Source: a virus
Virus record (IMG/VR): IMGVR_UViG_3300022205_000001
Span: 64,001-128,000 of that record
Strand: one strand, 5' to 3'
DNA length: 64,000 nucleotides
Numbering within the stretch: position 1 is the stretch's first letter; each line of letters starts with the position of its first letter. Below, in pieces: positions 3,445 through 16,580 of the stretch. The translations under genes were made by a program, and so were the position numbers. A model generated the notes under the pieces. That model searched no databases and was not told the origin of the DNA. It was given only the letters and a program-made list of their open reading frames with translations.

Positions 3445-3473
3445 ACTATAACACACTTAGCAATCAATGTCAA
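3445..3473 (-). promoter_or_regulatory. Sigma70-type promoter for the 3034 gene
   Basis: Minus strand: TTGACA (3468-3473), 17-base spacer, TATAGT (3445-3450) preceded by TGT, which gives an extended -10. The -35 box overlaps the stop codon of the AAA+ gene at 3470. Confidence 0.87.
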
Positions 3474-4627
3474 GAACTTTTTTGTGACTCCATCCTATTA
3501 TCCAATACCACACTGCTATCAAGCTTGCTATACAAATCCAAGAATGACTTTTTGGTATCATTGTCGAATCGATTGAGACAATAGGTGATTGCCTTGATTT
3601 TACTCTCAAAAATCGGGAAGGCAGTAATGATCTGTACCAATCTACGAGTAGATACCACTTCGTCACCCACTCCATCCTCAAATGCTTTTCGGATGGTATT
3701 TGCCCAGGTGACAAGATTAGAGACGAAATCATCGTCAATCTTTCCGGCAGACTCCAATTCTTTCTTGAGAATCCTCTTCTCAATATTAGCAGGAGGCCAT
3801 TCTTGTTCAAACATGATCGGAAACCGTTCAAGGAATGCTTCGTTGAGAATGTTGGTATACATGTACCGACCACTCTCCGAACCTTTCCCCTTTGTGTTTG
3901 CCGTCACAATGACATTGAACCCATGTGCCGGATGTACCACTTCACCTTTCTTCTTAAGAAGAAAAGGTTTTCCTTCCAAAACTCGTTGAAGTGTTGCAAG
4001 GTTCTGGGCACCGAAGTCGATTTCATCAATGCAGAGAATCGCGCCACGCCGAGCCGCAATGGTGACTGGTCCATCACGCCAGACCATATCATTGTTAATT
4101 AGGACATACCCGCCCAACAGATCGGTCTCGTCGGTTTCGGGGGTCATACTGTAGTGGATGTATTCTCTCCTGAGTTGAGCACACGCTTGTTCAGGAGCCA
4201 TGGATTTTCCGTTACCAGACAATCCGGTGATGAACACTGGACAGAACATCTTTGATTCAATGATGGTCTTCAAATCCTCAAAGTTTCCGAAGGGAACATA
4301 ATTCTTGTAATGTTCAGGAATAATGGACTGTTCCTCAAGTGTCGTCACCAATGAACGAATGACTGATCGAGGAGTCAATTCTGCTGTAGTGTTTACAGGA
4401 GCCGTAGCCTTAGGGGCGACTTGTTTATGAGTCTCGGTAGTGATGGTGGCGCCTGGTACTTTGAACACACCACGGCTCATGCGGTTCGTTTCGTCCTTTG
4501 TGAACCATTGGGGAATTTTGATACCATGCTTATTGCAAAGGTTTCTCAATTCCGGTTTTGTAATGGTAGCCTTTCCTGTTTTCTGCAACAGTTTCAGGAA
4601 ATGTTCTCTGGCTGCCTTGTAATCCAT
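3470..4627 (-). CDS. cobS-like: AAA+ ATPase, CobS/MoxR-like
   Basis: A 385-residue protein. Residues 1-60 form a small helical N-terminal region (ITKPELRNLCNKHG, then IPQWF). The AAA+ core follows: Walker A GLSGNGKSM near residue 137, Walker B ILCIDEIDF near residue 200, sensor-1 VIVTANT and a C-terminal helical domain with STRRLVQII. This is the MoxR/CobS class that works with VWA partners to remodel proteins or insert metals. Phage copies are often labelled CobS although no cobalamin role is shown. The CobT-like partner is the next gene upstream. The ATG at 4625-4627 has AAGGAGG nine bases before it; the longer frame would run through the promoter and is rejected. Confidence 0.85.
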   Translation of the reverse strand: MDYKAAREHFLKLLQKTGKATITKPELRNLCNKHGIKIPQWFTKDETNRMSRGVFKVPGATITTETHKQVAPKATAPVNTTAELTPRSVIRSLVTTLEEQSIIPEHYKNYVPFGNFEDLKTIIESKMFCPVFITGLSGNGKSMAPEQACAQLRREYIHYSMTPETDETDLLGGYVLINNDMVWRDGPVTIAARRGAILCIDEIDFGAQNLATLQRVLEGKPFLLKKKGEVVHPAHGFNVIVTANTKGKGSESGRYMYTNILNEAFLERFPIMFEQEWPPANIEKRILKKELESAGKIDDDFVSNLVTWANTIRKAFEDGVGDEVVSTRRLVQIITAFPIFESKIKAITYCLNRFDNDTKKSFLDLYSKLDSSVVLDNRMESQKSS

Positions 4628-4655
4628 GTCAGATGCCTCCTTATTGTTATTCATA

Positions 4656-4684
4656 AGTATAACAGTATCCGGTATATTTGTCAA
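4656..4684 (-). promoter_or_regulatory. Sigma70-type promoter for the AAA+ ATPase gene
   Basis: Minus strand: TTGACA (4679-4684), 17-base spacer, TATACT (4656-4661) with TGT directly before it (extended -10). It lies between the CobT-like stop (4706) and the AAA+ ATG, giving the ATPase a promoter separate from its presumed partner. Confidence 0.87.
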
Positions 4685-4705: not shown

Positions 4706-7111
4706 TCAATGAGTTTCGAGTTGTGAAATCATCTGAATGAAACGGCTTACGAGAATGCGACTCGTTGACTTCGTTTTCGATGCCTTTTTGTATGCATTCA
4801 ACAACCGACCTGGCGTCCATGCCCTTTCCTCTTCCATCGTAAATGCTTGCGCCTGAAGTTCCTTTTCTCCTGGAATGAAATAGAACCTATTGTACCCAGG
4901 GGTATACGATTCAATGAACTTGTTGCTTTTCAATTCTTCCTGTAAGGTCTTTTCTAATAAAATGGCGTCTTGGTTGTATCTAGAAAAAACTACACGTTTC
5001 CCATTCTTATCATGGTAGTATTTTTCAAGGGCACCCCCTAAAGAGTGGTGTCCTCGACCTCCAACAATAAAGAATCCAAACACACCACTTTTAGCCGTCA
5101 TCTGGAACCAACGCATAAGGGCTTCACGTAGATTATGGGAAACGTCACGATCATCAACTAGAATTGAGATTTTTTCTTTAGGATCAGTGATATACAATTT
5201 CCAGAATTTCAGACAGTCCCGGTGTCCTTTATCGTTATACATATATTCTATTCTGTTGGCATCCCCATCATGGACAAAGATGGTATTCACAATATCTAAC
5301 CGATGCTTCTCTCTGAATTGCTGCACGATCTCACGGGCCGCAATGATCGTTTCACATAACGGGGTGGAACCTGTGTGTGAAAGAGTCGGGAACTCCGTTG
5401 ATAAATGTTCTCGCGTTTCCATCATTTGAATCAGTAACAGATGGAGTGCGGCGGCTGATTTGAATTCCAAGGCAGACATTGAAGAGTTGAACATTTCTTG
5501 GAACCATATATCCTCAAGGACCAGGTCCTTTGCCTTTTTACTAAACTGTTTTTGTGTGTTGGTTTTTATAGGCAGATCCGTAAAGCTATACGCCGCAAAA
5601 GGGATGTTGACTTTCTTACAGAACATCGCAAGAATGAGAATTTGCTCCATTGCTCCCTTGAGGTGGGGATTCATTGATCCAGATCGATCTAGGATCAACA
5701 CCAACCCGTGGGACTTCCCTTTAGTGGACTTGACAACCTGACGAAAAATATTATCATCCAATCGATATCGAGCAATCTTCTTGATATCGATATCCCCGGT
5801 GTCGGATACTTTAGTGCGCCCGTATGTCTTTGCGGCCTTCCGCATTTCAAATTCTTTCACAAGCAGCATGATATAATCGTCATTCTTCTTATTGAAGTCC
5901 ACATATAACTTCAGGGCACGTTGCTTTTGATTGAGGTTCTTCAATAACGCTTGTGAAAGAATGGCGTTGGTTGTCTTTGCAGGAATAATAATTTCCTTAA
6001 GATTCGGGGTAGGGATCGTTGCATAAAACACATCCTTTTGCCCTGAAGAATCCACTAATCCTTCTTCCCTTGCGCGGAATTCTTCGTCAGTGAAAGAACG
6101 AGGGATAAACTCCTCATTCTCATGTGACCGAGGATCACTACCACACTGGTCACTATCCTCACCAGTTTCATCTTCCTCTTCTACATCATCATTGGAATCT
6201 TCTTCGCTTTCTTTTTGTTCCTTTGTAGAGTGAGAATCCTCTTCCCCCTCACCTTCTTCGTCGCCATCTTCCTCTTCGCCCTCTTCATCACTATCATTCT
6301 CCGTATCAGAAGTGGACGGTTCCCCGGCGTCTTCATCGTCGGATGAATCGGAACTATCGTCAGTATCTTCTGTTTTCTCGTTTTCTTCTGCTTTGGAGGT
6401 TTCCCCTTCCCCCTCAGTTGTTTCTTCCTCTCCTACATCATCAAACTCTTCGCCGCTTTCTTCTTGCTCCTCTTGTTGCTCTTGTTCCTCGTCTTCGGAC
6501 TGCATTGTTTCTAGCATGTCCTGCTTTTTCTGCGTCTGTTGTTCTGTTTTGGAGTATTCAAACAGCCGGGTAGCAAGATCAACTACTTGTTCCCATGTTT
6601 CAGTCTGCATCAGTTCATCATAGAACGGCTGTTCCTGTGGCGTAAATGTGATATCAAACGTCCCGGTGCCACATTTTGCAACAAGATTCAACTTATCGAT
6701 CAAATACATGTTTTTGATACGATTTTCCGTTATATGACCGAAAAACCGTCGTTTGACCAAATCTTGATAGCCCATGACCATGGGCTTACGAAGACCTGGG
6801 TATTTGCTCTTGATTAGACGTTCAATACGGGCATCTTCGACAACATTCAAAAATCCCTTGAATCGTTTCTTTTTCAGATCATGTGCATCAATCGCATCAT
6901 GCCATCCCTCAGGTGGGGTGTGTAGGGCATGACTGATTTCATGACCGAGAAGAAGGTCATAGAGATTTCCATCCATGTCCTTCCATGTAGGACAGGTGAG
7001 GATACGAGTTTGAAGATTGAAGTAAGCCGTGCGAGCATACCGATGTTCGACCGTGATATTTTCGGTCGCCATGAGTTTTGCGAGCATTGATTTTGTTTCG
7101 AGTGTAAACAT
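4706..7111 (-). CDS. cobT-like: CobT-like protein: metalloprotease-like N-terminus, acidic linker, VWA domain
   Basis: An 801-residue, three-part protein. Residues 1-200 contain GHEISHALHTP (HExxH at 57-61), a zinc-metallopeptidase signature; REGW-like PPEGWHDAI follows. Residues about 200-330 are an extremely acidic Glu/Asp/Ser linker. Residues about 465-640 are a von Willebrand A domain with the MIDAS motif LILDRSGSM and a later VHDGDAN that may be part of the metal site. CobT/MoxR-associated VWA proteins have the same acid-linker plus VWA design, and the AAA+ partner is the next gene down. The start overlaps the preceding stop as TAATG, with AAGGGGG as ribosome site. Target and activity are unknown; peptidase function is inferred from the motif. 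Confidence 0.8.
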   Translation of the reverse strand: MFTLETKSMLAKLMATENITVEHRYARTAYFNLQTRILTCPTWKDMDGNLYDLLLGHEISHALHTPPEGWHDAIDAHDLKKKRFKGFLNVVEDARIERLIKSKYPGLRKPMVMGYQDLVKRRFFGHITENRIKNMYLIDKLNLVAKCGTGTFDITFTPQEQPFYDELMQTETWEQVVDLATRLFEYSKTEQQTQKKQDMLETMQSEDEEQEQQEEQEESGEEFDDVGEEETTEGEGETSKAEENEKTEDTDDSSDSSDDEDAGEPSTSDTENDSDEEGEEEDGDEEGEGEEDSHSTKEQKESEEDSNDDVEEEDETGEDSDQCGSDPRSHENEEFIPRSFTDEEFRAREEGLVDSSGQKDVFYATIPTPNLKEIIIPAKTTNAILSQALLKNLNQKQRALKLYVDFNKKNDDYIMLLVKEFEMRKAAKTYGRTKVSDTGDIDIKKIARYRLDDNIFRQVVKSTKGKSHGLVLILDRSGSMNPHLKGAMEQILILAMFCKKVNIPFAAYSFTDLPIKTNTQKQFSKKAKDLVLEDIWFQEMFNSSMSALEFKSAAALHLLLIQMMETREHLSTEFPTLSHTGSTPLCETIIAAREIVQQFREKHRLDIVNTIFVHDGDANRIEYMYNDKGHRDCLKFWKLYITDPKEKISILVDDRDVSHNLREALMRWFQMTAKSGVFGFFIVGGRGHHSLGGALEKYYHDKNGKRVVFSRYNQDAILLEKTLQEELKSNKFIESYTPGYNRFYFIPGEKELQAQAFTMEEERAWTPGRLLNAYKKASKTKSTSRILVSRFIQMISQLETH

Positions 7112-7364: not shown

Positions 7365-8948
7365 TTATTTGGGTTTTTGGAAGATATAGATCGGCTCAAA
7401 CTTGCGCCATGATCTCTCAACGCGGCAGGAATTCTTGAATTTTGGTTTTCCGGTCGTTTCATCGACCCGATTGCCGCCCGGAGTCTGGGCGAGCGTCATT
7501 TTGAGCGTTTCCACATGTTTCATACCGAGTTGTTCTAAGATATCACAAGAATCCTTTTCAAGAGGAAGATTCTCCCCTGAGAAAACAGCATCGGCAATGT
7601 TCCATGCAAGATATCCCCCCGGTCTAAGCCACAAAACCGCCGTTTGGAGGGTCTTTTTTAAAAATCCGTCTCTCCATGCATCATATTGAGAAAACCGCCT
7701 ATATGACTGGTTAGGATCATTAGAGTATGCTTCCTTAGCGAAATATGGTGGACTAGTGAAGACGAGACTCAGCTTACCCTGGTATTTTTGAAATTCTGGA
7801 TCAAACTGCATCTCTTCTGATCCTTTTTGCCAGAATTGGAAACCGATATGATCAATTGGGCATACAAGTGAGCCTGGTTTGACATGTTCGCGGAAGAAGT
7901 CTACGATTTCATGGTATTTCGTTCTTCCTGGGGTTGTATTGTGGTCTGTGTTTGGATCATTTCCCAGGTACACGAGGTGCCTGGTATCCATGGTCGATAA
8001 CGCACCCAATAATCTCCCACCCCAACCAGAAGATGGGTCCCACACATAAATGTTCTCTTCGTTCTTCCATTCCTTTGTGTATGTCTCGTAGATGTATTTG
8101 GCAACGAGTGGAGGGAAGTTCACGGCATATTGACAGAACGATACTCGAAACGCTTTCAATCCAACCGGGAAGAGTTTTTGTCCCTTTGTGAAGACACGAA
8201 TTTCATAGACCTCTGATCGGTCCCAATCTACATTGGTCTTACACTGTTCAGGGATAAGAGGGCCGAGTGTTTCGATCTGAGAGCGAGTGATTCTCAAATT
8301 TGATTTCGTGCGGAGTTCTTCATTGTAACCAGAATAACCAGTATCTTCGGACACCGGGCAGAGCCAATACTCCACTTTCTTGCGGGTTCGATACTTCTCC
8401 GATTCAAATTTCACAATCCAATCGTTTCCGGTAGCAGCATAGGGGATGTGATCAACGGAGTTATCGGATGCTCGTACCGGGGTCGAATAGCTGTAGAAAC
8501 TATCACGCTTGAAATGTCGTGAGGCATAGGTGATGAATGTGTCGAGTAATTCATCTTGTGCAAAGTAATCATAGATGGATTTCCCCGCATTCACATCCTT
8601 AGTATAGTTGATCCGCGTCTTCATCATGGTGGGGAAGAATTGATTGACGGCATTCCCCACTACAAAGGTGTTGTGAAGCACATCATAGACCCCGGTATCC
8701 ATGTCTCGCGCAAGAATTTTTCCAGGAATGACTCTCTGGAGGTCATTGAACTGCTCGGCAATTTCACTCTTTGAAAATCCGACACGAGGGGGCTGACCGT
8801 GTTCATCCCATAGGCGAGTGACTTCTTTGCGAAGATCGATCACCCACTGACGAAATTCCTCTTTTGACATCCAAAGGACTTCTTCAAATGTCTTGTTGAC
8901 CGGAGAGCCTAGAAATTCAGTGTTCTTCTCATAGAACCATTGTGTCAT
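7365..8948 (-). CDS. Large DNA methyltransferase-like protein (amino-MTase, SPPY motif)
   Basis: A 527-residue protein. The C-terminal half is a Rossmann-type methyltransferase: a motif I-like block DPSSGWGGRLLGAL near residue 304, the catalytic motif IV TSPPYF near residue 400, and LRPGGYLAWNIAD after it. SPPY is typical of enzymes methylating exocyclic amino groups (N4-cytosine or N6-adenine). The first 250 residues have no recognisable domain and could bind DNA or a partner. It has a dedicated promoter (8974-9002) and TGAGGT before its ATG. No restriction endonuclease was seen next to it, so it is an orphan protecting or modifying phage DNA, or part of a more complex base-modification set with the genes at 9574-11468. 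Confidence 0.8.
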   Translation of the reverse strand: MTQWFYEKNTEFLGSPVNKTFEEVLWMSKEEFRQWVIDLRKEVTRLWDEHGQPPRVGFSKSEIAEQFNDLQRVIPGKILARDMDTGVYDVLHNTFVVGNAVNQFFPTMMKTRINYTKDVNAGKSIYDYFAQDELLDTFITYASRHFKRDSFYSYSTPVRASDNSVDHIPYAATGNDWIVKFESEKYRTRKKVEYWLCPVSEDTGYSGYNEELRTKSNLRITRSQIETLGPLIPEQCKTNVDWDRSEVYEIRVFTKGQKLFPVGLKAFRVSFCQYAVNFPPLVAKYIYETYTKEWKNEENIYVWDPSSGWGGRLLGALSTMDTRHLVYLGNDPNTDHNTTPGRTKYHEIVDFFREHVKPGSLVCPIDHIGFQFWQKGSEEMQFDPEFQKYQGKLSLVFTSPPYFAKEAYSNDPNQSYRRFSQYDAWRDGFLKKTLQTAVLWLRPGGYLAWNIADAVFSGENLPLEKDSCDILEQLGMKHVETLKMTLAQTPGGNRVDETTGKPKFKNSCRVERSWRKFEPIYIFQKPK

Positions 8949-8973
8949 GATTTTACCTCATAATCAAAATGAT

Positions 8974-9002
8974 ATTATCTCATATTTTAGGGATAAAGTC
9001 AA
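8974..9002 (-). promoter_or_regulatory. Sigma70-type promoter for the methyltransferase-like gene
   Basis: Minus strand: TTGACT (8997-9002), 17-base spacer, GATAAT (8974-8979) with TGA before it. The -35 box overlaps the stop of the HNH gene at 8999. The leader is about 20 bases and carries TGAGGT. Confidence 0.78.
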
Positions 9003-9571
9003 GCTGCCACACGTTCACAAATCCAACCTTTATGGTGGGGGAGTTTTCCTGAAGCTACCGCGGATAACTTTACTCTTAATAGATTGTTCTCTTTTGAAAA
9101 CTTAGAAAGATTTTTAATTATGAGTGTTTCTCCTACGGGAGATGTTAGTTTATATGTCATTGCCCTGTTAGTTTGTTTTTTGGCAGCCGCAGATAGTTTT
9201 TCTTTCCATTCTTCAGTGAAGGTTCTTCCCTTTAGGGAATCCGATATCTTCTTTCTTTCAGAATCTAACTGCATCCTTCTTCTATTGTTCATAATTACCT
9301 GTTCTGAGGCCGGAACTGAATATCCAGATTTTCCATAATTCCAAGGTTTTCTTCCTTTTGATTTATGTGACAGTAACAATCGTATCAATTCCGCTTTCGG
9401 GGCATAACCAGCTAATCCCTGCCATGCCACATAATCTTCTATTTTATTGTACGTTTCCCATAATATCTTATGGGCTCGCGCATGTTCCTCGACCGTTAAC
9501 GTCTGTATGTTAGAAGGATCATTATTTCCGCCCATATGTCTAGGAATAATGTGATGTTTGTGGATCACCAT
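8999..9571 (-). CDS. HNH homing-type endonuclease with NUMOD-like repeats
   Basis: A 190-residue protein. The N-terminus HKHHIIPRHMGG followed by NIQTLTVEEHARAH is an HNH nuclease core. Downstream, GRKPWNYGKSG and SDSLKGRTFTEEWKEKL resemble the NUMOD3-type DNA-binding repeats of free-standing homing endonucleases, and the C-terminal NLSKFSKENNLLRVKLSAVASG a NUMOD1-like helix-turn-helix. The gene looks more AT-rich than its neighbours, which suits recent acquisition. The ATG at 9569-9571 lies just after the stop of the PLP-fold gene; another in-frame ATG at 9601 would overlap that gene by 28 bases. It is the last gene of the long operon started at 17123. Confidence 0.85.
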   Translation of the reverse strand: MVIHKHHIIPRHMGGNNDPSNIQTLTVEEHARAHKILWETYNKIEDYVAWQGLAGYAPKAELIRLLLSHKSKGRKPWNYGKSGYSVPASEQVIMNNRRRMQLDSERKKISDSLKGRTFTEEWKEKLSAAAKKQTNRAMTYKLTSPVGETLIIKNLSKFSKENNLLRVKLSAVASGKLPHHKGWICERVAA

Positions 9572-9573
9572 GG

Positions 9574-10344
9574 TCAGTCTATATTTCCCGCTACATTCCA
9601 AAAAAGAACCTTTTCTGGTTTTGGATGAGTTTTATACCATTGGACCATTGGATGCCACCCTTTCGCATCATATGTTATTGCTGAATTGAATGGAGGTAAC
9701 TCTTCTTTTTTCACAGAACGATCAAACTTATAGGGAGAACGATGGAATATCGCGGTACCAATTTCCTGATGACTCATAGTATGCCCAACAGAAACTACAT
9801 GCACTCTCGCGTTTGGCCATGCTTTCTGTAATCCTCTAGATAGGGTGCCACTTGATCCTACTGACCACACATCATCAGGGGCAAAGGGAATTTGTTCATG
9901 ACACACTTTGACGATGCTATCTAATACAGTTGGATGCTCAAGTCCGATGGGTAGCACAAAACGATTTGTGGGGTCGGTTTCTGTATATTCTCGCGCTCTA
10001 GCCTTAGTGACATTTAACATTCCATTATCTATAAAATGGTAAATTGATCCGAGCTTCATGCCTTCTTTTTGAAACGGATGCAGCTTCGTCATGTCTCGTT
10101 TTGCCATAAACAAATGAACAGACTTTCCGTATCGCTTGGCAACGACCGGGAGACTGATTTGAGCGTAGCCTGTTGCGGGGCATGATCCGAAGACGATTTC
10201 TTTTTGAGGAATTGATTGGACCAGGAAGTCAACGAACCGCGCTTTGCTGCCGTATCCTAGCAGATCATCCCGAACGACCATGAATCCATCATGGTCTACA
10301 ATCTGAATAGGGGGATTGGGGTCTTTCCATTCATTAAAGTTCAT
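9574..10344 (-). CDS. PLP-dependent enzyme-like protein (ACC deaminase / tryptophan synthase beta fold)
   Basis: A 256-residue protein with the layout of fold-type II pyridoxal-phosphate enzymes. RDDLLGYGSKARFVDFL at residues 25-41 matches the GGNKxRKLEF block of D-cysteine desulfhydrase/ACC deaminase relatives, with Lys34 as the cofactor lysine. GSCPATGYAQISLPVVAKRYG resembles the Asn/Ser loop after it, and VGSSGTLSRGL near residue 162 is a phosphate-binding Gly/Ser loop. It is shorter than free-standing enzymes of 320-350 residues, so it may lack part of a domain. It overlaps the dioxygenase stop by ATGA. The reaction is unknown; amino-acid chemistry for host metabolism or base modification are both possible. 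Confidence 0.6.
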   Translation of the reverse strand: MNFNEWKDPNPPIQIVDHDGFMVVRDDLLGYGSKARFVDFLVQSIPQKEIVFGSCPATGYAQISLPVVAKRYGKSVHLFMAKRDMTKLHPFQKEGMKLGSIYHFIDNGMLNVTKARAREYTETDPTNRFVLPIGLEHPTVLDSIVKVCHEQIPFAPDDVWSVGSSGTLSRGLQKAWPNARVHVVSVGHTMSHQEIGTAIFHRSPYKFDRSVKKEELPPFNSAITYDAKGWHPMVQWYKTHPKPEKVLFWNVAGNID

Positions 10345-11468
10345 GATACAATCTTTTCGAGAAGTTTCGGGGTAACAATCACATCCACCACAAGATGGAT
10401 ACGCTCAATTGGAGCCCCATTGTAGACTTTATGAGGCATACGGGTATCAAGCATCCAACATTCCCCCACTTTCATATTCACATCTACACGCCGATCATTG
10501 GTGTTCCATGACGTGAAAATGACTTCAGGTGTCGTTGTAATAGGCCAGTGAAGACGAGCAATTTTCCCCAATCCATTTCCAGCATCAGGATCGACTTGAT
10601 CGGTATGTCGCTCAAGTTCCCCACCCCCAGGTGTCAGCTTCATGAAACGGATTCGGTGGATATCCCCATCGAGCCAGGCAATCAGTTCGTCCACTTCAGG
10701 GAAGAGTTTACGAAGTGGGGTGTCCTGCATAACGAAGACATCATCCTTATGTTCCTCTTTCCACTTGTCGCTCATTTCTATCGGCTTCGCAATGAAATGA
10801 GGATCGGCAGAATATCCTCGGAGTGAGAAAGCGGACCAGGACTTTTTGACATTGTATTTGGAGTAGTGATTCTCAAATGTATCCCCGAAGTCTTCCAATT
10901 TTTCACGAATGGAGTCAATGAGCTTCGTATCTACATCTGCTAACTTCTTAATGTTCACCAGGTCTTCGGATGGAACACCTAGTATCGCTCGTTTGTCGAA
11001 GTTGTATTTGTTGTCACGAAACCAAATAGAAAACACTTCCCCAAACGAGGTGATCTTGGAACACACATAACGAAATCCTGCTTCTTGGGCAAGTTGATGT
11101 TGTTCCATATCTGCTGCCCAGGTGTGTAGCCAAACATTCTCATTGTGGTAAGAATTGAGGAAGGTGAGTAAGGCAACATAGTCGCCGCAAAGATGCTTGA
11201 TGGTAAGATCCCCTGGTAACTTGATCGTCACCAGGGGTCCGTTGGAATACATGGATACCGGTGTGCGGACTTTGGACCGGGTTACTACCCCCATTGCTTC
11301 ACCATGGAGGTAGGATACCGTTTTCAACTGTTGTTTGTGTAGCGCCTCCGCAATGTTATTCTTTTTGAACTGGGCAAAGGGAGACGCTGCACGGTTATTG
11401 TACGGCTTATATTTCGCTTCAATCGATTTCAAGAAACTAATGTCGTATCCATGCTGCCATGATTTCAT
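10341..11468 (-). CDS. Fusion protein: GNAT-like domain plus aspartyl/asparaginyl hydroxylase-type dioxygenase
   Basis: A 375-residue protein. Residues about 1-165 have an acetyltransferase-like (GNAT) ending, WLHTWAADMEQHQLAQEAGF then GEVFSIWFRDN. Residues about 230-375 match the AspH class of Fe(II)/2-oxoglutarate oxygenases: ELERHTDQVDP gives the HxD metal pair near residue 287, GECWMLDTRMPHKVYN the distal His near 345, and RIHLVVDVIV the 2-oxoglutarate-binding Arg. Two adjacent ATGs exist; the second (11466-11468) has better spacing from AGAGGT. The gene overlaps the PLP-fold gene by ATGA and follows the VWA gene. The substrate, whether protein, small molecule or base, is not indicated. 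Confidence 0.68.
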   Translation of the reverse strand: MKSWQHGYDISFLKSIEAKYKPYNNRAASPFAQFKKNNIAEALHKQQLKTVSYLHGEAMGVVTRSKVRTPVSMYSNGPLVTIKLPGDLTIKHLCGDYVALLTFLNSYHNENVWLHTWAADMEQHQLAQEAGFRYVCSKITSFGEVFSIWFRDNKYNFDKRAILGVPSEDLVNIKKLADVDTKLIDSIREKLEDFGDTFENHYSKYNVKKSWSAFSLRGYSADPHFIAKPIEMSDKWKEEHKDDVFVMQDTPLRKLFPEVDELIAWLDGDIHRIRFMKLTPGGGELERHTDQVDPDAGNGLGKIARLHWPITTTPEVIFTSWNTNDRRVDVNMKVGECWMLDTRMPHKVYNGAPIERIHLVVDVIVTPKLLEKIVS

Positions 11469-11477
11469 CATATACCT

Positions 11478-12116
11478 CTATGTTGTCGGCTGCTCCTCTT
11501 TCTGTTGGACAGTTTCCTGAACATTCATACAACTGATTACCCCGGCGCGGTATGAAGTCAATGTATTAGTGACACAGGCATATGCATGAAGAGTGCCCTG
11601 CTTATCAGCCGTCCACTGAAGAGTATTAGTTGCGGCGAATCCATATAAACCGCCGGTCTGAAATGCATCAATGTTTGCCCCCAAGAACACAAACTGCCAC
11701 TTGTATGTGGTTTCTTGAGTTTTCACTCGTGATTTCACATCTTCAAGAGTATATGTGCGGGAGGAGTTTTCAAATCCGTCAGTGACCACAACTACCACAA
11801 CCTTATCAGGACGTTGAGACTCAGATAACCCAGCAAGCCAACGACCTTCTCCGTCAATTGCCTGGCAGATGGCATCATGGAGTGCAGTGCCCCCTCGTGG
11901 GGTGTAATTGATCTTGTTCAACGGTTCAAATGTTAGTCTATCATGAAATCCACCAACAAACGTAGAGAACTTATACACTGCTGTCGTAAAGTCTCCTGGT
12001 TGGAGTTTTTGTTGACGGACCAATTCGTTGACGCCTTCAATCGTTTGATCCCAAATCGAGCCCATAGAACCTGATTCATCGAGAATCAAGATGAAATGTG
12101 TGTAGTCTTTCTTCAT
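11478..12116 (-). CDS. Stand-alone von Willebrand A (VWA) domain protein
   Basis: A 212-residue protein made almost entirely of one VWA domain. The MIDAS motif FILILDESGSMGS is at residues 8-20; the conserved Thr follows in TPRGGTALHDAI, and VVVVVTDGFENSS gives the third metal-binding Asp. Such domains mediate metal-dependent protein binding, often in partnership with MoxR-type ATPases. A CobS/MoxR-like ATPase is encoded at 3470. The C-terminal tail is Gln/Glu-rich and probably disordered. The gene overlaps the peptide deformylase stop as ATGA, with GGGAGGT before the start. This is the second VWA protein in the window. Confidence 0.82.
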   Translation of the reverse strand: MKKDYTHFILILDESGSMGSIWDQTIEGVNELVRQQKLQPGDFTTAVYKFSTFVGGFHDRLTFEPLNKINYTPRGGTALHDAICQAIDGEGRWLAGLSESQRPDKVVVVVVTDGFENSSRTYTLEDVKSRVKTQETTYKWQFVFLGANIDAFQTGGLYGFAATNTLQWTADKQGTLHAYACVTNTLTSYRAGVISCMNVQETVQQKEEQPTT

Positions 12117-12712
12117 GTGCGACCTCCCAATTTACGCTTGAATTCCATGATACGTTCAATCTTCTTAAACATCTTCTGGCGCTTCTTCTTTGCCATCTGA
12201 AGGGTGAGACTCCCCACTTTACTAGTGAACACTTTCCCTTCTAGATGATCATATTCATGCTGGAATACCCGCGCCGTGGCACCAGTGTAAACTTCTTCCT
12301 TTCTTTCTCCAGTGAGGGTATAATATTCGACCTTGATGGTTTTCGGTCTGGTGACAGGTAATACTAACCCAGGGTATGTCAAGCATCCCTCTTTGTCCCG
12401 TACCACTTCCTCTGAGGTTTCGAGGATCTTTGGATTGATTACCACAATACCTCCAACCATCACGAACATTCGACACAAGACCCCACATTGATTGGCGGCG
12501 AGTCCTGCGCCTCCATATTTGTTCATTGTTGCAATGAGACGTTCAGCCAATTCCTCTAAATCCTTCGGAGGAGCCGTGAAGTCCACGTCCTTTGTCGCTT
12601 TGTGCAAAAAGGGATTACTATCATTATACAACGGCAGCAATTCAGCCGTTTTCTTGATGATTTTCGGTGCGGCATCTGTGTTGTATGTGAAAACTGGCGG
12701 CGTGGTTTCCAT
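12113..12712 (-). CDS. def: Peptide deformylase
   Basis: A 199-residue metalloenzyme that removes N-formyl groups from new proteins. All three family motifs are present: GAGLAANQCGV (motif 1, GxGLAAxQ), EGCLTYPG (motif 2, EGCLS-type with the metal-binding Cys), and QHEYDHLEGKVF (motif 3, HExxH with the catalytic Glu). The lysine/arginine-rich C-terminus (KKKRQKMFKK) resembles the ribosome-binding tail of bacterial enzymes. The ATG at 12710-12712 is preferred over a GTG two codons upstream, because that GTG is part of the TGAGGT ribosome site. Phage deformylases are known in environmental T4-like phages, where they may support production of capsid and other proteins. Confidence 0.95.
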   Translation of the reverse strand: METTPPVFTYNTDAAPKIIKKTAELLPLYNDSNPFLHKATKDVDFTAPPKDLEELAERLIATMNKYGGAGLAANQCGVLCRMFVMVGGIVVINPKILETSEEVVRDKEGCLTYPGLVLPVTRPKTIKVEYYTLTGERKEEVYTGATARVFQHEYDHLEGKVFTSKVGSLTLQMAKKKRQKMFKKIERIMEFKRKLGGRT

Positions 12713-12722
12713 GATCACCTCA

Positions 12723-14435
12723 TTATATTACAATACGTGAAAAGTTTTGTTGTTTCGTAAACTTCACTACATGACCAAATTTATCCTGAAGAATATCCCC
12801 GCGGTGTGAGATTACAAATACATTCGTTCCATCCAAGTGGTGAAGGATTTTCATAAGTTCTTCCGCACCCGTGTTGTCGAGTGACGAGTCAAACACTTCA
12901 TCCAAAATGAGCAGATTCGTATTTGCTGAGTTCTTCAGTTTTGCAACGGCTCTCCATGTCAACATAAGTGCCATGTCAATTCGTTGCTTTTCTCCTTCAG
13001 AGAATGATGCATAGGAGAAATCATCACGATACCGTGACTTGATCGTTTCTTTGAACGCTTCATCTAGATTGAAGTTCACGAAGAAATCCATTGAAGCGAG
13101 GTATTTATTCACCATCATATTGATGATTGGCAGGTATTGTCGGATGATCTTTGTCTTGATCCCCGTATCTTTCAGAAGTGCGCCTGCGGCGTCATAATAT
13201 GCAATCTGCTCAATGATCTTACGTTTAGCTTCTTCAAGAGCGTCCAATTCTTTCTTATGTTCTTCAAGTCTTTCCTGCTCTCGCCCAGTAGAATCGTGCT
13301 TCGTTTCCAATGAAGCAATTTTCTCCTCTAGTTTCTGGATGAATTTTGCAATTTGCGCCATAGAGGTTGAAAACTCTGCCAGGCGAACGGAATGTGTGGC
13401 AATGGTCTGTTCAATCCCCCGAATCTCCGCAATCCTCTCCTGATACGACTTGAATTTTTCTTCCAATTGAGTTAGACCCCCTTCACACTCTCCAATTTTT
13501 GAAGACAAGGAAGTCAACTGATCTGTCTTGAACGCTTCATTGATTTCCTGAATACAGGTCGGACAGGTCGTTTCTGTCTCGTAGAACTTTTTGGTCTTCT
13601 TGTGCTTCCCAAGATTCTGTTCAATTTGGGCTTCCAATTGAGTCATTTTCTTGAGTGTCTTTTCAATCTTATCCTTGTCACTGATCTTTGCTTTAAGATC
13701 GCTGACTGTTCGTTTCATGATAGCGGTTTCAGCATTCAACCGAGAAATCTCTTCCTGGTGTGTGTTGATTTCTTGAGTATATTCCTTCTTCAGATTTTCA
13801 GCATCCTGTTGGGCTTCGTTCATGTATCGGGTTTGCATCGCAATTTTCTCTTGCGCCCCATTGATCAATACCGTGTTCTCACCCTTTTGCTGCTGAAGAA
13901 GAGAAATCTTCGTCTTGACCAACCCATTCATGAGTGAGAAAATCTGAATGTCGAGTAAGTCTTCGATGATTGCCCGTCTATCAGAAGATGATAGCTGCAT
14001 AAACGGGGTAAAGGATGCAGAACCAAGAATGACAATCTGTGTAAAGGATTTGAAGTTCAACTTTAGAATAAACTTCTCTAGATGTTCCTGATAGTCTTTC
14101 GATTCAGCATTCTGGTTCAACAATGTTCCATCACGATAGATCTCAAAGATATTGGGCTTGATGCCACGAATAATCTTGAATGAGTGATTCTCAGTGCGGA
14201 ATTCGACCTCAACCAAAGTTTCCTTCTGATTGATCGAATTGATCAATGAGGCTTTGTTGATGTTCCTGAATGGACGGTTGTACAAGGCAAAACATAATGC
14301 ATCCAACATGGTCGATTTCCCTGACCCGTTTTCTCCGACAACCAATGTATTCTGGTTACGGTCCAGGGAGATTTCTAACCAATAGTTACCTGTTGAAAGA
14401 AAATTCTTCCAACGGAGGGTTGTGAAGTGTAGCAT
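12723..14435 (-). CDS. 46: Recombination endonuclease subunit gp46 (SbcC/Rad50-like)
   Basis: A 570-residue SMC-type ATPase; T4 gp46 has 560. It pairs with gp47 to resect DNA ends for recombination-dependent replication. The Walker A loop GENGSGKST lies at residues 34-42, followed by LDALCFALYNRPFRNINK. A long coiled coil (about residues 170-430) is interrupted by the zinc-hook motif CPTC near residue 290. The signature block SYASFSEGEKQRIDMALM lies near residue 478 and Walker B LLILDEVFD near 510. The start overlaps the gp47 stop as TAATG. The only odd point is its operon, shared with non-replicative enzymes downstream. Confidence 0.96.
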   Translation of the reverse strand: MLHFTTLRWKNFLSTGNYWLEISLDRNQNTLVVGENGSGKSTMLDALCFALYNRPFRNINKASLINSINQKETLVEVEFRTENHSFKIIRGIKPNIFEIYRDGTLLNQNAESKDYQEHLEKFILKLNFKSFTQIVILGSASFTPFMQLSSSDRRAIIEDLLDIQIFSLMNGLVKTKISLLQQQKGENTVLINGAQEKIAMQTRYMNEAQQDAENLKKEYTQEINTHQEEISRLNAETAIMKRTVSDLKAKISDKDKIEKTLKKMTQLEAQIEQNLGKHKKTKKFYETETTCPTCIQEINEAFKTDQLTSLSSKIGECEGGLTQLEEKFKSYQERIAEIRGIEQTIATHSVRLAEFSTSMAQIAKFIQKLEEKIASLETKHDSTGREQERLEEHKKELDALEEAKRKIIEQIAYYDAAGALLKDTGIKTKIIRQYLPIINMMVNKYLASMDFFVNFNLDEAFKETIKSRYRDDFSYASFSEGEKQRIDMALMLTWRAVAKLKNSANTNLLILDEVFDSSLDNTGAEELMKILHHLDGTNVFVISHRGDILQDKFGHVVKFTKQQNFSRIVI

Positions 14436-15508
14436 TATTGTGCCGCCATTTCATTCATCGCTTCAGTGTACAAATCCTGAAGCATTGATTTGAGTTTATC
14501 TGCATCCACGTTGCCTGGTAACTGCATCGCATCGACACACTTACGGATGATCGTCACGGTGTCTTCTGCTTGGTTGATTGTTGTAATCGAGTCTAGCTTA
14601 TTTTCAGTGTAATCCTCAACAATCGTCACATCCAATGGTCCGATCTTGTATAATCGATCCATTACGGTATCAAAGAGATACGGATTCTGTTTTCTGATCA
14701 CTACCACTTTGACATACGAATTCACATAGGGAACGAAATCCTGGTTCTTCCAGAATTCGTAGTTTTGGATACTATCATCATAGTCGAGCTTATAGAATAG
14801 TCTATACGGATTTTCGATAAAAGTCAACTGTTTTGTTTCGGTATCGAAAATATGAAATCCCCGTTGATCTTTATAATCTGCCCAAGTGATTTCGTACTGA
14901 TTGCCAAGATAGTAGATTACTCCATCACTTGATTTGTGATGGAAGTGACCACTAAGGACCAGATCGAATCGATCAAAAATAGATCGTGGGTGACCATCCA
15001 TACAAACATTACCCCGATCCATTTCAAATCCAGCAATTTCAAGGTGTCCGAACACTGTGAGGGCAGGAGTGTCCTTCAAAAACTGTATGGTGGAATCATA
15101 GTTGCCGCTGTTGATCCAGGGTACAAGTGCTACGTCTAACCCTCCATAGTTGACGGTTTCTGCTTCCTGGAAAATGCGAATATTTGGGTATCTGCCTAAC
15201 AGTTCACTCAATGCGTTGACTTTATTTGTGTTGCGGTAATAAACATCGTGATTACCACACAACATGTCAACCGGCATACCCATCATATCCAATTTGTCGA
15301 AAAAGTCTGTTTGCCACTTATGCCAGATGGCAAAGTTGATGAATTTCCGACGATCAACAACATCCCCTAGGTGGACGATTTTGTCTACACGGTGCTTTTC
15401 AAGTGCAGGAAAGAAGATATTGTCCCAAAACCGAAAAAAGAAATCGTTGATTTGGGGATTGTCACCGCGGGCCCCGGCATGAGTATCAGAAATAAGAGCT
15501 AACCTCAT
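14435..15508 (-). CDS. 47: Recombination endonuclease subunit gp47 (SbcD/Mre11-like)
   Basis: A 357-residue calcineurin-type phosphoesterase; T4 gp47 has 339. The metal-binding motifs appear in order: SDTHAG at the N-terminus, HLGDVVDRR, CGNHDVYY and VLSGHFHHKS. The remaining C-terminal part is the capping domain that binds gp46. Together they form the nuclease that processes double-strand ends during replication and repair. It overlaps the HNH gene upstream (ATGA) and gp46 downstream (TAATG), so translation is coupled. In T4 the two genes are also adjacent, with 47 before 46. Confidence 0.96.
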   Translation of the reverse strand: MRLALISDTHAGARGDNPQINDFFFRFWDNIFFPALEKHRVDKIVHLGDVVDRRKFINFAIWHKWQTDFFDKLDMMGMPVDMLCGNHDVYYRNTNKVNALSELLGRYPNIRIFQEAETVNYGGLDVALVPWINSGNYDSTIQFLKDTPALTVFGHLEIAGFEMDRGNVCMDGHPRSIFDRFDLVLSGHFHHKSSDGVIYYLGNQYEITWADYKDQRGFHIFDTETKQLTFIENPYRLFYKLDYDDSIQNYEFWKNQDFVPYVNSYVKVVVIRKQNPYLFDTVMDRLYKIGPLDVTIVEDYTENKLDSITTINQAEDTVTIIRKCVDAMQLPGNVDADKLKSMLQDLYTEAMNEMAAQ

Positions 15509-16020
15509 AATCTGCTGCCTTTCTGTCTATTTTCTCTTTGAGTAATAATCTGTAAGTTATCTTGATGGTGTAATCCTCCATGAACTATGGGGATTTTGTG
15601 ATCTACTTCATATGGGATTCCTGTCAGTTGAGTTAATTTTCTTGCCTCTTCATAAATCGATAGAATTATGATATTGTTGGCACCTGATGGTGTTTGATTT
15701 TTGATTTTGCTTCTTCTTCCGCTTTGGTATGCAGCTTGATATACTTCAACTCGTTTTCTCTGCATCGCTACCTTTTCTGGATTGTTTTTTCTCCAACGAG
15801 AAAGACGATTCTTTGATTTTTCTGGTGTATGATACTTATTGATGGTCCCATCATACAGATTGCGTTTACTTCTTTCAATGTGACACTTAACGCAACCAGA
15901 ATAAGTTACTGATTTGATTGTTGACCCGCAATTCCTACATGGGACACCATTATAAGTCTTATCTCCCTGCATCTTAGCAATGAGTTTATCCTTATGTGAG
16001 GGAGAATATTGATTAGGCAT
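15505..16020 (-). CDS. HNH endonuclease inserted between gp55 and gp47
   Basis: A 171-residue protein. Two CxxC-type pairs near residues 28-49 (CRNCGS and CVKCH) suggest a zinc ribbon. A basic middle section follows, and the C-terminal HNH core reads YEVDHKIPIVHGGLHHQDNL ending with an ENRQKGSR motif. This matches free-standing HNH endonucleases of phages. The gene fits exactly between gp55 (TAATG overlap) and gp47 (ATGA overlap) without disrupting either and appears AT-rich, consistent with a mobile homing-type gene. It may cut related phage genomes lacking the insertion. No intron boundaries were seen. Confidence 0.88.
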   Translation of the reverse strand: MPNQYSPSHKDKLIAKMQGDKTYNGVPCRNCGSTIKSVTYSGCVKCHIERSKRNLYDGTINKYHTPEKSKNRLSRWRKNNPEKVAMQRKRVEVYQAAYQSGRRSKIKNQTPSGANNIIILSIYEEARKLTQLTGIPYEVDHKIPIVHGGLHHQDNLQIITQRENRQKGSRL

Positions 16021-16580
16021 TACTTGTCACCTACGAACCGAAGGATGCTGCTTGCTGAGAGTCTTGTCTTTCGTTTGGCGTTCCCGATCTTATTCTTTTG
16101 CTGTTTACTATTCTCAAATGTGCGGATGAATTCCTCGATGTTCTCGTAGACTTTGAATTGGTGTTCCTCTTGACCAATTTCCGCTGCACTTTGATTGACC
16201 TCTTGGAGGAGTCCTAGTTGCTCCGTTGCTTTATACTTAGCGTAGAGTTGTTTCTTTTCAGTTCCAATTCGTCGCAAGAATGCAAAGTAGATGATCTGTG
16301 TAAAATACGCAAATGGGTTTTTTGATTTTGCTGGGTTGAAGTTATCAACCGAACGGAGGCAGTTTTCTACTGCATCAGAAACCATGTCTTCTCGAAATGT
16401 GTAACTCGCAAAATTGGGCTTTCGTGCCAAGTTTTCGGCAATCTTCAAAAAACAACTTCCGATATAATCATCGACAATGGGAACGGGGGCACGTTTCTTT
16501 TTAGATTGACGCACGAGTTCTTTGTACCCTATGAGGGCATTGAGAAATTCCTCGTTGTTGACATAATGATCTTGTGCCAT
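16020..16580 (-). CDS. 55: Late transcription sigma factor gp55
   Basis: A 186-residue protein matching T4 gp55 (185 residues). Shared blocks include YVNNEEFLNALI near the N-terminus, IAENLARKPNFASYTFREDM and VSDAVENCLRSVDNFNPAK, corresponding to the T4 segment with IAEGLSKRFNFSGYT and IEASIKGLHNFDETK, then NPFAYFTQIIYFAFLRRI. gp55 is a minimal sigma that recognises only the -10 element TATAAATA. Such motifs are present upstream of virion genes in this window. AAGGAGG precedes the start, and the gene is second in the operon from promoter 17095-17123. Confidence 0.93.
   Translation of the reverse strand: MAQDHYVNNEEFLNALIGYKELVRQSKKKRAPVPIVDDYIGSCFLKIAENLARKPNFASYTFREDMVSDAVENCLRSVDNFNPAKSKNPFAYFTQIIYFAFLRRIGTEKKQLYAKYKATEQLGLLQEVNQSAAEIGQEEHQFKVYENIEEFIRTFENSKQQKNKIGNAKRKTRLSASSILRFVGDK

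Follow-up and report, generated by a model that had tools for sequence, protein, structure and literature searches.

A methyltransferase-anchored gene module of T4-like viruses with a probable role in nucleobase hypermodification

The window analyzed here is a stretch of 64,000 nucleotides (positions 64,001 to 128,000 of IMG/VR record IMGVR_UViG_3300022205_000001) from an uncultured T4-like virus, with a gp46/gp47/gp55 block as T4-like operon context. A first-pass annotation had grouped four of its genes as a possible joint enzyme set: a SPPY methyltransferase (MT), a short PLP-fold protein, a two-domain protein joining GNAT-like and AspH-type oxygenase parts, and a VWA protein. All four open reading frames were found in the window where they had been placed, on the minus strand, and their family matches agree with that reading. 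The features are:

7365..8948, minus strand: SPPY amino-methyltransferase (MT), the anchor gene; 527 aa, PF01555, with a novel N-terminal domain of ~250 aa
8999..9601, minus strand: HNH homing-endonuclease-like gene between PLP and MT; PF01844 (E 9.3e-6), phrog_655 (E 8.2e-18)
9574..10344, minus strand: putative PLP fold-type-II (PALP-like) protein; 256 aa, phrog_7093, Lys34 in GSKxR, phosphate-loop-like SSGT
10341..11471, minus strand: fusion of a GNAT-like domain and an AspH-type Fe(II)/2OG oxygenase; 376 aa, assigned by PF05118, AlphaFold and Foldseek
10974..11471, minus strand: GNAT-like N-terminal domain of the fusion, residues ~1-166; assigned by hhalign and from split AspH + GNAT + MT operons
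11478..12116, minus strand: VWA-domain protein, a passenger in the same operon; phrog_7371 (E 7.6e-49)
12113..12718, minus strand: peptide deformylase, a frequent upstream neighbor; PF01327 (E 1.5e-38)
12723..16580, minus strand: gp46, gp47, an endonuclease-VII-like insert and the gp55 late sigma factor; phrog_77, phrog_100, phrog_1035, phrog_234

The genes are tightly packed. The PLP and AspH reading frames share 4 nt, 6 nt separate AspH from VWA, and VWA overlaps the peptide deformylase by 4 nt, in line with the earlier description of PLP, AspH and VWA as overlapping or nearly touching; the identities of gp55, gp46 and gp47, with which they were said to share an operon, are confirmed by phrog matches. 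Membership of the peptide deformylase in a pathway is not evident. The HNH gene, which does intervene between PLP and MT in the window and might instead begin at an ATG near 9571, has no counterpart at this position in the loci of relatives; it is a homing insert and lies outside the module. The promoter of its own that had been proposed for MT (TTGACT-17-GATAAT at 9002-8974) is indistinguishable from chance, 18 promoter-like sites being observed in the region where 20.1 are expected.

The MT carries the motif FTSPPYF and matches PF01555 at residues 394-527 (E 9.9e-6), scoring 26.1 bits against a cut-off of 26.7 in hmmscan and 29.8 bits, above the cut-off, in the genome search. SPPY, E406, YS and D304/D331 are invariant in all 51 aligned sequences. 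Profile, SPPY and the SAM-motif residue D304 together class it as a predicted N4C/N6A-type amino-methyltransferase. No Pfam family matched the N-terminal 266 aa, which fits the extra N-terminus of about 250 residues noted at first pass. A search of PDB profiles returned nothing useful. Structure prediction had been suggested for each protein; a model of MT was obtained, but its Foldseek matches were no more specific than Rossmann methyltransferases in general, with low TM-scores, among them Trm11, NSUN4 and m1A58 enzymes.

The PLP protein matches phrog_7093, labeled “threonine dehydratase” (E 8.7e-32). Lys34, placed by the first reading in GYGSKARF, is invariant in 42 of 42 sequences; S165 and G166 are invariant too. 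The window protein is short, lacks the usual SGNH-type loop and matched no Pfam family; in the PDB profile search it gave weak TrpB matches only. Its homolog in Erythrobacter phage ZS04 (P0001) scores 40.1 bits against PF00291 (cut-off 35). Scanning viral contigs with the single PLP sequence found no relatives, and scanning with an alignment confirmed more than 500 among the matches listed.

AspH-family enzymes are best known as hydroxylases of proteins or free amino acids. The C-terminal domain of the fusion matches PF05118 (E 9.8e-10; 38.9 bits, cut-off 22.6), and H289-x-D291, H347 and R357 are invariant in 81 of 81 sequences. With a predicted DSBH fold, an HxD...H motif and a 2OG-binding arginine, it qualifies on sequence and model as an AspH-type Fe(II)/2OG oxygenase. 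The AlphaFold model of the fusion (pLDDT 93.3) has L-proline cis-4-hydroxylase as its nearest solved relative in Foldseek (4p7w, E 1.5e-11); other structural matches include human AspH and a prolyl hydroxylase whose structure was determined together with EF-Tu. The GNAT-like character of the N-terminal domain, as first proposed, is supported by the order of strands and helices in the model and by alignment to a stand-alone GNAT (hhalign Prob 88.7, E 2.5e-6, 133 columns). That stand-alone protein matches PF00583 and has an acyl-CoA-type loop, QGSGNA; the fused domain itself matched no GNAT profile, and the acyl-CoA loop (Q/RxxGxG/A) is not recognizable in it.

Do these genes belong together? 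The neighborhood search that had been put forward as a check found PLP and AspH recurring with methyltransferases beyond close relatives, so that the first outcome named as counting against a joint set did not arise. AspH, PLP and MT occur together across diverse T4-like contigs, and in settings away from gp46 other viruses show different gene orders and neighbors; the three form a conserved module whose genes are kept together in hundreds of related virus contigs. Where an AspH locus extends 3 kb or more downstream, MT is present in 44 of 47 cases; AspH and PLP lie within 50 nt of each other in 38 of 41 loci, and where no PLP match exists AspH overlaps MT by 4-8 nt (21 of 25). Large records with PLP or the two-domain AspH also have MT, and records with MT only have neither. 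In uncultured T4-like viruses MT is the anchor, beside which AspH, PLP or a free-standing GNAT varies, often with 4-nt overlaps; split forms include AspH-GNAT-MT loci (L185 and L192-L194, as AspH + GNAT + MT operons) and GNAT-MT loci. When the states none, A, P and AP (A, AspH; P, PLP) are placed on a tree of MT from 53 loci, they change 14 times, against a shuffled mean of 28.5. Some loci pair MT with AspH alone and others with PLP alone, which does not imply a linear pathway of fixed composition. The joint set suggested at the outset survives in part: MT, PLP and GNAT-AspH recur together, but VWA, although its domain identity holds, is rejected as a pathway member, lying near AspH in only 4 of 80 AspH loci and belonging to a family carried by 215 phage records of other kinds.

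Further evidence comes from exchanges of partners. PLP and MT are adjacent or fused in unrelated siphophages and probable prophages. In Erythrobacter phages the PLP domain sits inside a methyltransferase, in ZS04 dividing a ParB-associated MT into two parts; in Microcystis phage Mae-JY30 ParB, MT and PLP are consecutive, and in probable alphaproteobacterial prophages PLP directly follows ParB-linked CPPY methyltransferases. MT is followed by PLP in 8 of 18 loci from bacterial genomes, and a further PLP homolog has a dCMP-hydroxymethylase-like gene as an operon partner. Mycobacterium phage LilMcDreamy gp4 is a full-length two-domain AspH relative, the sole one found in a named phage, and adjoins TET-like, ADDT (PF18724, 47.4 bits) and ParB-like genes, the TET-like neighbor scoring below the Pfam cut-off. 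LilMcDreamy has no PF01555 match, and when viral contigs were searched for close relatives of gp4, the sole match was gp4 itself. At locus L266, two neighboring proteins (345 and 319 aa) were considered as ADDT relatives and are unsupported (hhalign Prob <1%). The placement of PLP in or after MT, and of the AspH relative in a TET-like/ADDT operon, ties the cassette to nucleic-acid modification.

Comparison with known systems brings out both likenesses and differences. The ParB-MT-PLP proteins (Erythrobacter R6L and ZS04, Mae-JY30, probable alphaproteobacterial prophages) share the PLP family (33-38% identity), its position inside or next to a PPY methyltransferase, and a PPYxxxExYSxDP stretch common with the window MT; they differ in that ParB replaces the 250-aa N-terminus, CPPY stands for SPPY, and no AspH was seen adjacent. 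These proteins are annotated as DNA modification methylase. Among TET/JBP-ADDT (aGPT-Pplase) thymidine hypermodification operons, that of LilMcDreamy resembles the window in having a full-length two-domain GNAT-AspH homolog. However, the 168-kb record, which may be incomplete, gave no match to PF12851 (Tet_JBP), PF00303 or PF18724 (ADDT), the last being positive in LilMcDreamy as comparison, and has a SPPY MT as anchor instead. T4 itself, with glucosyl-hydroxymethylcytosine, likewise mixes modification genes among replication genes, but the search found no dCMP-hydroxymethylase-family gene in the window genome, which has ThyX in its place. With no TET, ADDT or dCMP hydroxymethylase gene found in the record, this genome is unlikely to use a known hydroxymethyl route. 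Phage Mu Mom is a GNAT-fold adenine-modifying protein of phage DNA modification, and a likeness would lie in the GNAT-like fold; Mom is not known to have an AspH, PLP or PPY-methyltransferase partner. Similar in logic is the 5-carboxymethylcytosine (5cxmC) system CmoA/CmoX/CmoY of Synechococcus phage S-B43, in which a methyltransferase-fold enzyme sets a handle and a second enzyme attaches an amino acid, glycine. Its CmoX is a C5-methyltransferase homolog partnered by a Cx-SAM synthase and an asparagine-synthetase-like ligase, unlike the PPY-type window MT, and the main text of that paper makes no mention of PLP, a hydroxylase or an oxygenase (PMC12783734).

Conserved linkage, together with pairing with known DNA-modifying enzymes in unrelated phages, suggests that MT, PLP and GNAT-AspH probably form a nucleobase-hypermodification pathway building a novel chemical decoration, most likely on the bases of the phage's own DNA. 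The analysis shows directly to which families the genes belong, that their catalytic residues are conserved, how they are coupled in operons, and where they co-occur, fuse and exchange partners; from this we infer DNA as substrate, the order of steps, the group added and the benefit to the phage, which would be anti-restriction. The extra N-terminus of MT would recognize DNA, and MT would move a SAM-derived group onto cytosine or adenine, at an exocyclic amine. On the MT-marked base, the PLP protein may install or remodel an amino-acid-like substituent through beta-elimination or beta-replacement of the serine/threonine-dehydratase type, the oxygenase may hydroxylate this substituent, and the GNAT domain could act as an acyltransferase or, in a derived role, bind substrate. 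A bolder version, possible though doubtful, dispenses with the hydroxymethyl-pyrimidine handle: the SPPY transferase or the PLP protein would load the exocyclic amine directly (with a SAM-derived aminocarboxypropyl, or with alanyl by PLP beta-replacement), AspH would hydroxylate and GNAT acylate, giving an amino-acid-bearing base not seen before.

Some findings count against hypermodification of DNA, namely the protein or free-amino-acid substrates for which AspH-family enzymes are best known, the L-proline hydroxylase as nearest solved relative, an AspH-ADDT link drawn from one phage, co-occurrence that falls largely within one syntenic T4-like block, and the atypical window PLP protein. An alternative is that MT performs simple protective methylation (m4C or m6A), with AspH and PLP as separate accessory genes, for example of amino-acid metabolism, in a slot that tolerates insertions, flanked by gp46 and the MoxR/VWA pair. 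That slot also gathers genes for HNH, dCMP deaminase, glycosyltransferase-like and other proteins, and of 53 complete intervals 17 have MT with neither AspH nor PLP. We consider this unlikely, as outside the slot, in other gene orders and with other neighbors, AspH and PLP still accompany MT, unrelated phages carry PLP within MT or immediately after it, and overlaps of 4-8 nt are typical. Still less probable is modification of a protein (for instance the host's RNA polymerase, the ribosome or one of the phage's own proteins) for host takeover, AspH hydroxylating a residue that GNAT acylates: human AspH and the EF-Tu-bound enzyme are among the structural matches and the cassette sits inside the gp55 late-sigma operon, with no T4-late promoter found upstream, but this leaves unexplained why a PPY methyltransferase is the anchor, why PLP and MT are fused, and why the AspH relative has ADDT/TET-like neighbors. 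Modification of tRNA or rRNA, tuning translation during infection, is equally improbable: RNA methyltransferases also have PPY motifs and appear among the MT-model matches, but those matches have low TM-scores, PF01555 is a DNA methylase family, and the ParB-MT-PLP proteins and the ADDT and dCMP-hydroxymethylase-like neighbors favor DNA.

If nucleobase hypermodification is correct, the pathway would bring AspH hydroxylation and PLP fold-II chemistry onto a base, neither of which has to our knowledge been shown on DNA. The results also suggest that the phrog_7093 label and some phage “beta-hydroxylase” labels misname function. A fixed MT, modular gain and loss of AspH, PLP and GNAT, and small free-standing genes would allow the steps of the pathway to be tested one at a time. 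With hundreds of carrier contigs, including more than 550 confirmed viral relatives of MT and more than 500 of PLP among the matches listed, this may be among the commoner unrecognized base-modification systems of T4-like viruses.

The window comprises bases 64001-128000 of a virus record totalling 168,076 bases, whose gp23-like protein is nearest to the gp23 proteins of T4-like cyanophages (61-63%). The open reading frames of the cassette listed in the first-pass annotation are present, and in transcription order the region reads:

gp55 late sigma factor, - strand
15505-16020, - strand, endonuclease VII-like gene
gp47, gp46 and peptide deformylase (PDF), - strand
11478-12116, - strand, VWA-domain protein
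10341-11471, - strand, GNAT-like domain fused to an AspH-type oxygenase (AspH)
9574-10344, - strand, fold-type-II PLP protein (PLP)
8999-9601, - strand, HNH gene
7365-8948, - strand, SPPY methyltransferase-like gene (MT)
4706-7111 and 3470-4684, - strand, large VWA-type 'peptidase' and MoxR/CobS-type AAA protein respectively, farther downstream

AspH and PLP overlap by 4 nt. The HNH gene, scored as a homing endonuclease by family profile matches, and the endonuclease VII-like gene are two homing-type nuclease genes inside the gp55-MT operon. The 'peptidase' and AAA genes also lie downstream of MT in many relatives from the T4-like group.

Scanning IMG/VR with the AspH protein recovered 150 relatives, and among the best 80 of these the order gp55-gp47-gp46-PDF-AspH-(PLP)-MT recurs. 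Where at least 3 kb of sequence follows AspH, MT is present in 44 of 47 loci. AspH and PLP overlap or lie within 50 nt in 38 of 41 loci; of the 25 loci with no PLP match, 21 have AspH overlapping MT by 4-8 nt. Scans with PLP and MT alignments yielded at least 500 and at least 550 relatives, respectively; the best 80 loci were kept per scan, which over-represents close relatives, and their ORFs were called mechanically. Among the PLP matches listed, other arrangements are MT-AspH-(154 aa)-PLP beside different genes and AspH-(156 aa)-PLP-MT(-MT), and in some loci PLP is separated from MT. Among the MT matches listed, MT is constant while its neighbours vary as AspH with PLP, either alone, or neither. 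The VWA gene, initially counted in the enzyme set, occurs in 4 of the best 80 AspH loci and is widespread among unrelated phages, and is therefore excluded as a passenger.

Whole-record searches covered 19 large MT-bearing records, several picked because they bear MT. Ten of them contain PLP and 14 an AspH match, one of which (G004) is weak and remote; strong matches map to the cassette, and neither gene was found in G003, G005, G006 or G007. Where PLP lies apart from MT (records of 53-95 kb), MT is elsewhere in the record in G019, G020, G023 and G024, the exception being the 84-kb G027, in which none was found. An MT tree was built for 53 loci whose gp46-MT interval is complete (17 with neither gene, 16 with both, 11 with PLP alone, 9 with AspH alone); across it the four states switch 14 times, compared with 28.5 under shuffled labels. 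Gain or loss of AspH and PLP has thus occurred repeatedly next to an MT that stays in place.

The PLP family has methyltransferase partners elsewhere, one of several links to DNA modification. Three relatives were found among 50,697 phage records. The Erythrobacter phages R6L and ZS04 have the PLP domain embedded in an annotated DNA methyltransferase, and in ZS04 PF00291 (40.1 bits, cut-off 35) falls between the two halves of a PF01555 match; in Microcystis phage Mae-JY30, the genes for ParB, a CPPY methyltransferase and PLP follow one another directly. A CPPY methyltransferase directly precedes PLP, mostly overlapping it, in 8 of 18 bacterial-genome loci (Rhizobium, Devosia, Sinorhizobium, Rhodobacteraceae, Flavobacteriaceae, Methylocystaceae and an alphaproteobacterium), which are probably prophages. 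The CPPY and window-type SPPY proteins share a PPYxxxExYSxDP stretch. In contigs L263-L266, whose gene content includes T4-like genes, a protein of the thymidylate synthase family is encoded close to PLP (PF00303 match for L266); it is about 50% identical to T4-like phage proteins, some annotated dCMP hydroxymethylase.

Several neighbours of PLP were also recorded. In L266:386-4880, L264 and L263, which were binned as bacterial, the dCMP-hydroxymethylase-like gene stands in line with uncharacterised proteins (345 and 319 aa in L266), PLP and a further uncharacterised protein (phrog_13881). A protein of about 154 aa (L162:5447-5917 and 15 further loci), which in many loci away from gp46 is encoded between AspH and PLP, has invariant Cys (CY..E), His (HR...WPD) and Asp-Leu, appears papain/transglutaminase-like by eye, and matches no Pfam or PHROG family above cut-off. 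Glycosyltransferase-like genes (PF13524/PF00534, weak) begin right at the PLP gene end in L132:6678-7754, L128:6741-8114 and L258:2636-3664, which may mean that some viruses glycosylate the modified group. L164:5058-7439 carries, in a single run, AspH, a GalE-like epimerase, PLP, a member of the PAPS reductase family (PF01507, E 7e-42) and MT. R6L and ZS04 also have a PAPS reductase gene close to their PLP-MT gene, a hint of sulfur chemistry.

In BFVD, GNAT-AspH has a single close structural relative over its full length, gp4 of phage LilMcDreamy (TM 0.78/0.80, E 7e-35; hhalign 99.8%); the next match (E 5e-13) covers the oxygenase part only. There, gp3 is an amino acid:DNA transferase (ADDT; PF18724, 47.3 bits), gp2 is TET/JBP-like with a score below cut-off, gp1 is ParB-like, and no PF01555 match was found in the phage. 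On the evidence of this one genome, AspH therefore swaps partners, pairing with MT in the window and with TET-like and ADDT genes in that phage. The annotation of gp2 (L004:855-1787; also phrog_6059) as a queuine tRNA-ribosyltransferase is probably wrong, given its weak TET/JBP match and HxD...H pattern.

The proposed GNAT-AspH fusion is supported by loci in which the parts are split: L185 and L192-L194 encode a stand-alone AspH (200 aa), a GNAT (about 145 aa) and MT with short overlaps. In some loci lacking the fused gene, a free-standing GNAT (143-147 aa; PF00583, 21.4 bits, cut-off 20.7) fills the slot before MT. The fused N-terminal domain aligns with it (hhalign 88.7%, E 2.5e-6, 133 columns), and in its structural model the elements run in an order that agrees with GNAT. 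The acyl-CoA loop, QGSGNA in the free-standing form, is not recognisable in the fused one, making acyltransferase activity there doubtful.

Base hypermodification by an enzyme set is, as a kind, already known in phages. The closest precedents are the CmoX/CmoY carboxymethylcytosine system (PMC12783734) and TET/ADDT operons. Earlier papers describe phage AspH genes as encoding protein hydroxylases or as core genes, with no link to base modification (PMC12195039, PMC7029224), and no description of the MT, PLP and GNAT-AspH set was found in the literature searched. The window genome encodes ThyX. No ADDT, PF00303 or Tet_JBP match was found in its possibly incomplete 168,076-base record, within the limits of which known hydroxymethyl-based routes are unlikely.

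The window contains seven exact T4-late boxes where 1.6 would be expected, and all of them are on the coding strand:

23135, 29847, 42801, 51044, 57330, 58709 and 63510, - strand, exact TATAAATA

None was found upstream of the cassette. Expression before the late genes fits a role in DNA modification, without proving it.

Residues required for catalysis do not vary: all 81 AspH proteins have HxD...H and R, all 42 PLP proteins Lys34 and all 51 MT proteins SPPY. The nearest solved AspH relatives are amino-acid hydroxylases, namely L-proline cis-4-hydroxylase and a beta-hydroxylase from a nucleoside-antibiotic pathway. For the relatives of PLP, the named PLP families that come nearest are serine/threonine dehydratases, below cut-off; phrog_7093, the PLP family of window 9574-10344, is probably misnamed 'threonine dehydratase'. 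Fold-type-II PLP enzymes use beta-substituted amino acids, willardiine-type synthases joining an alanyl group to a ring nitrogen, and certain methyltransferase-fold enzymes transfer aminocarboxypropyl from SAM. Together, these chemistries suggest that the proposed modified base would bear an amino-acid-like substituent for AspH and PLP to work on, and their gain and loss beside MT is the pattern expected of tailoring enzymes.
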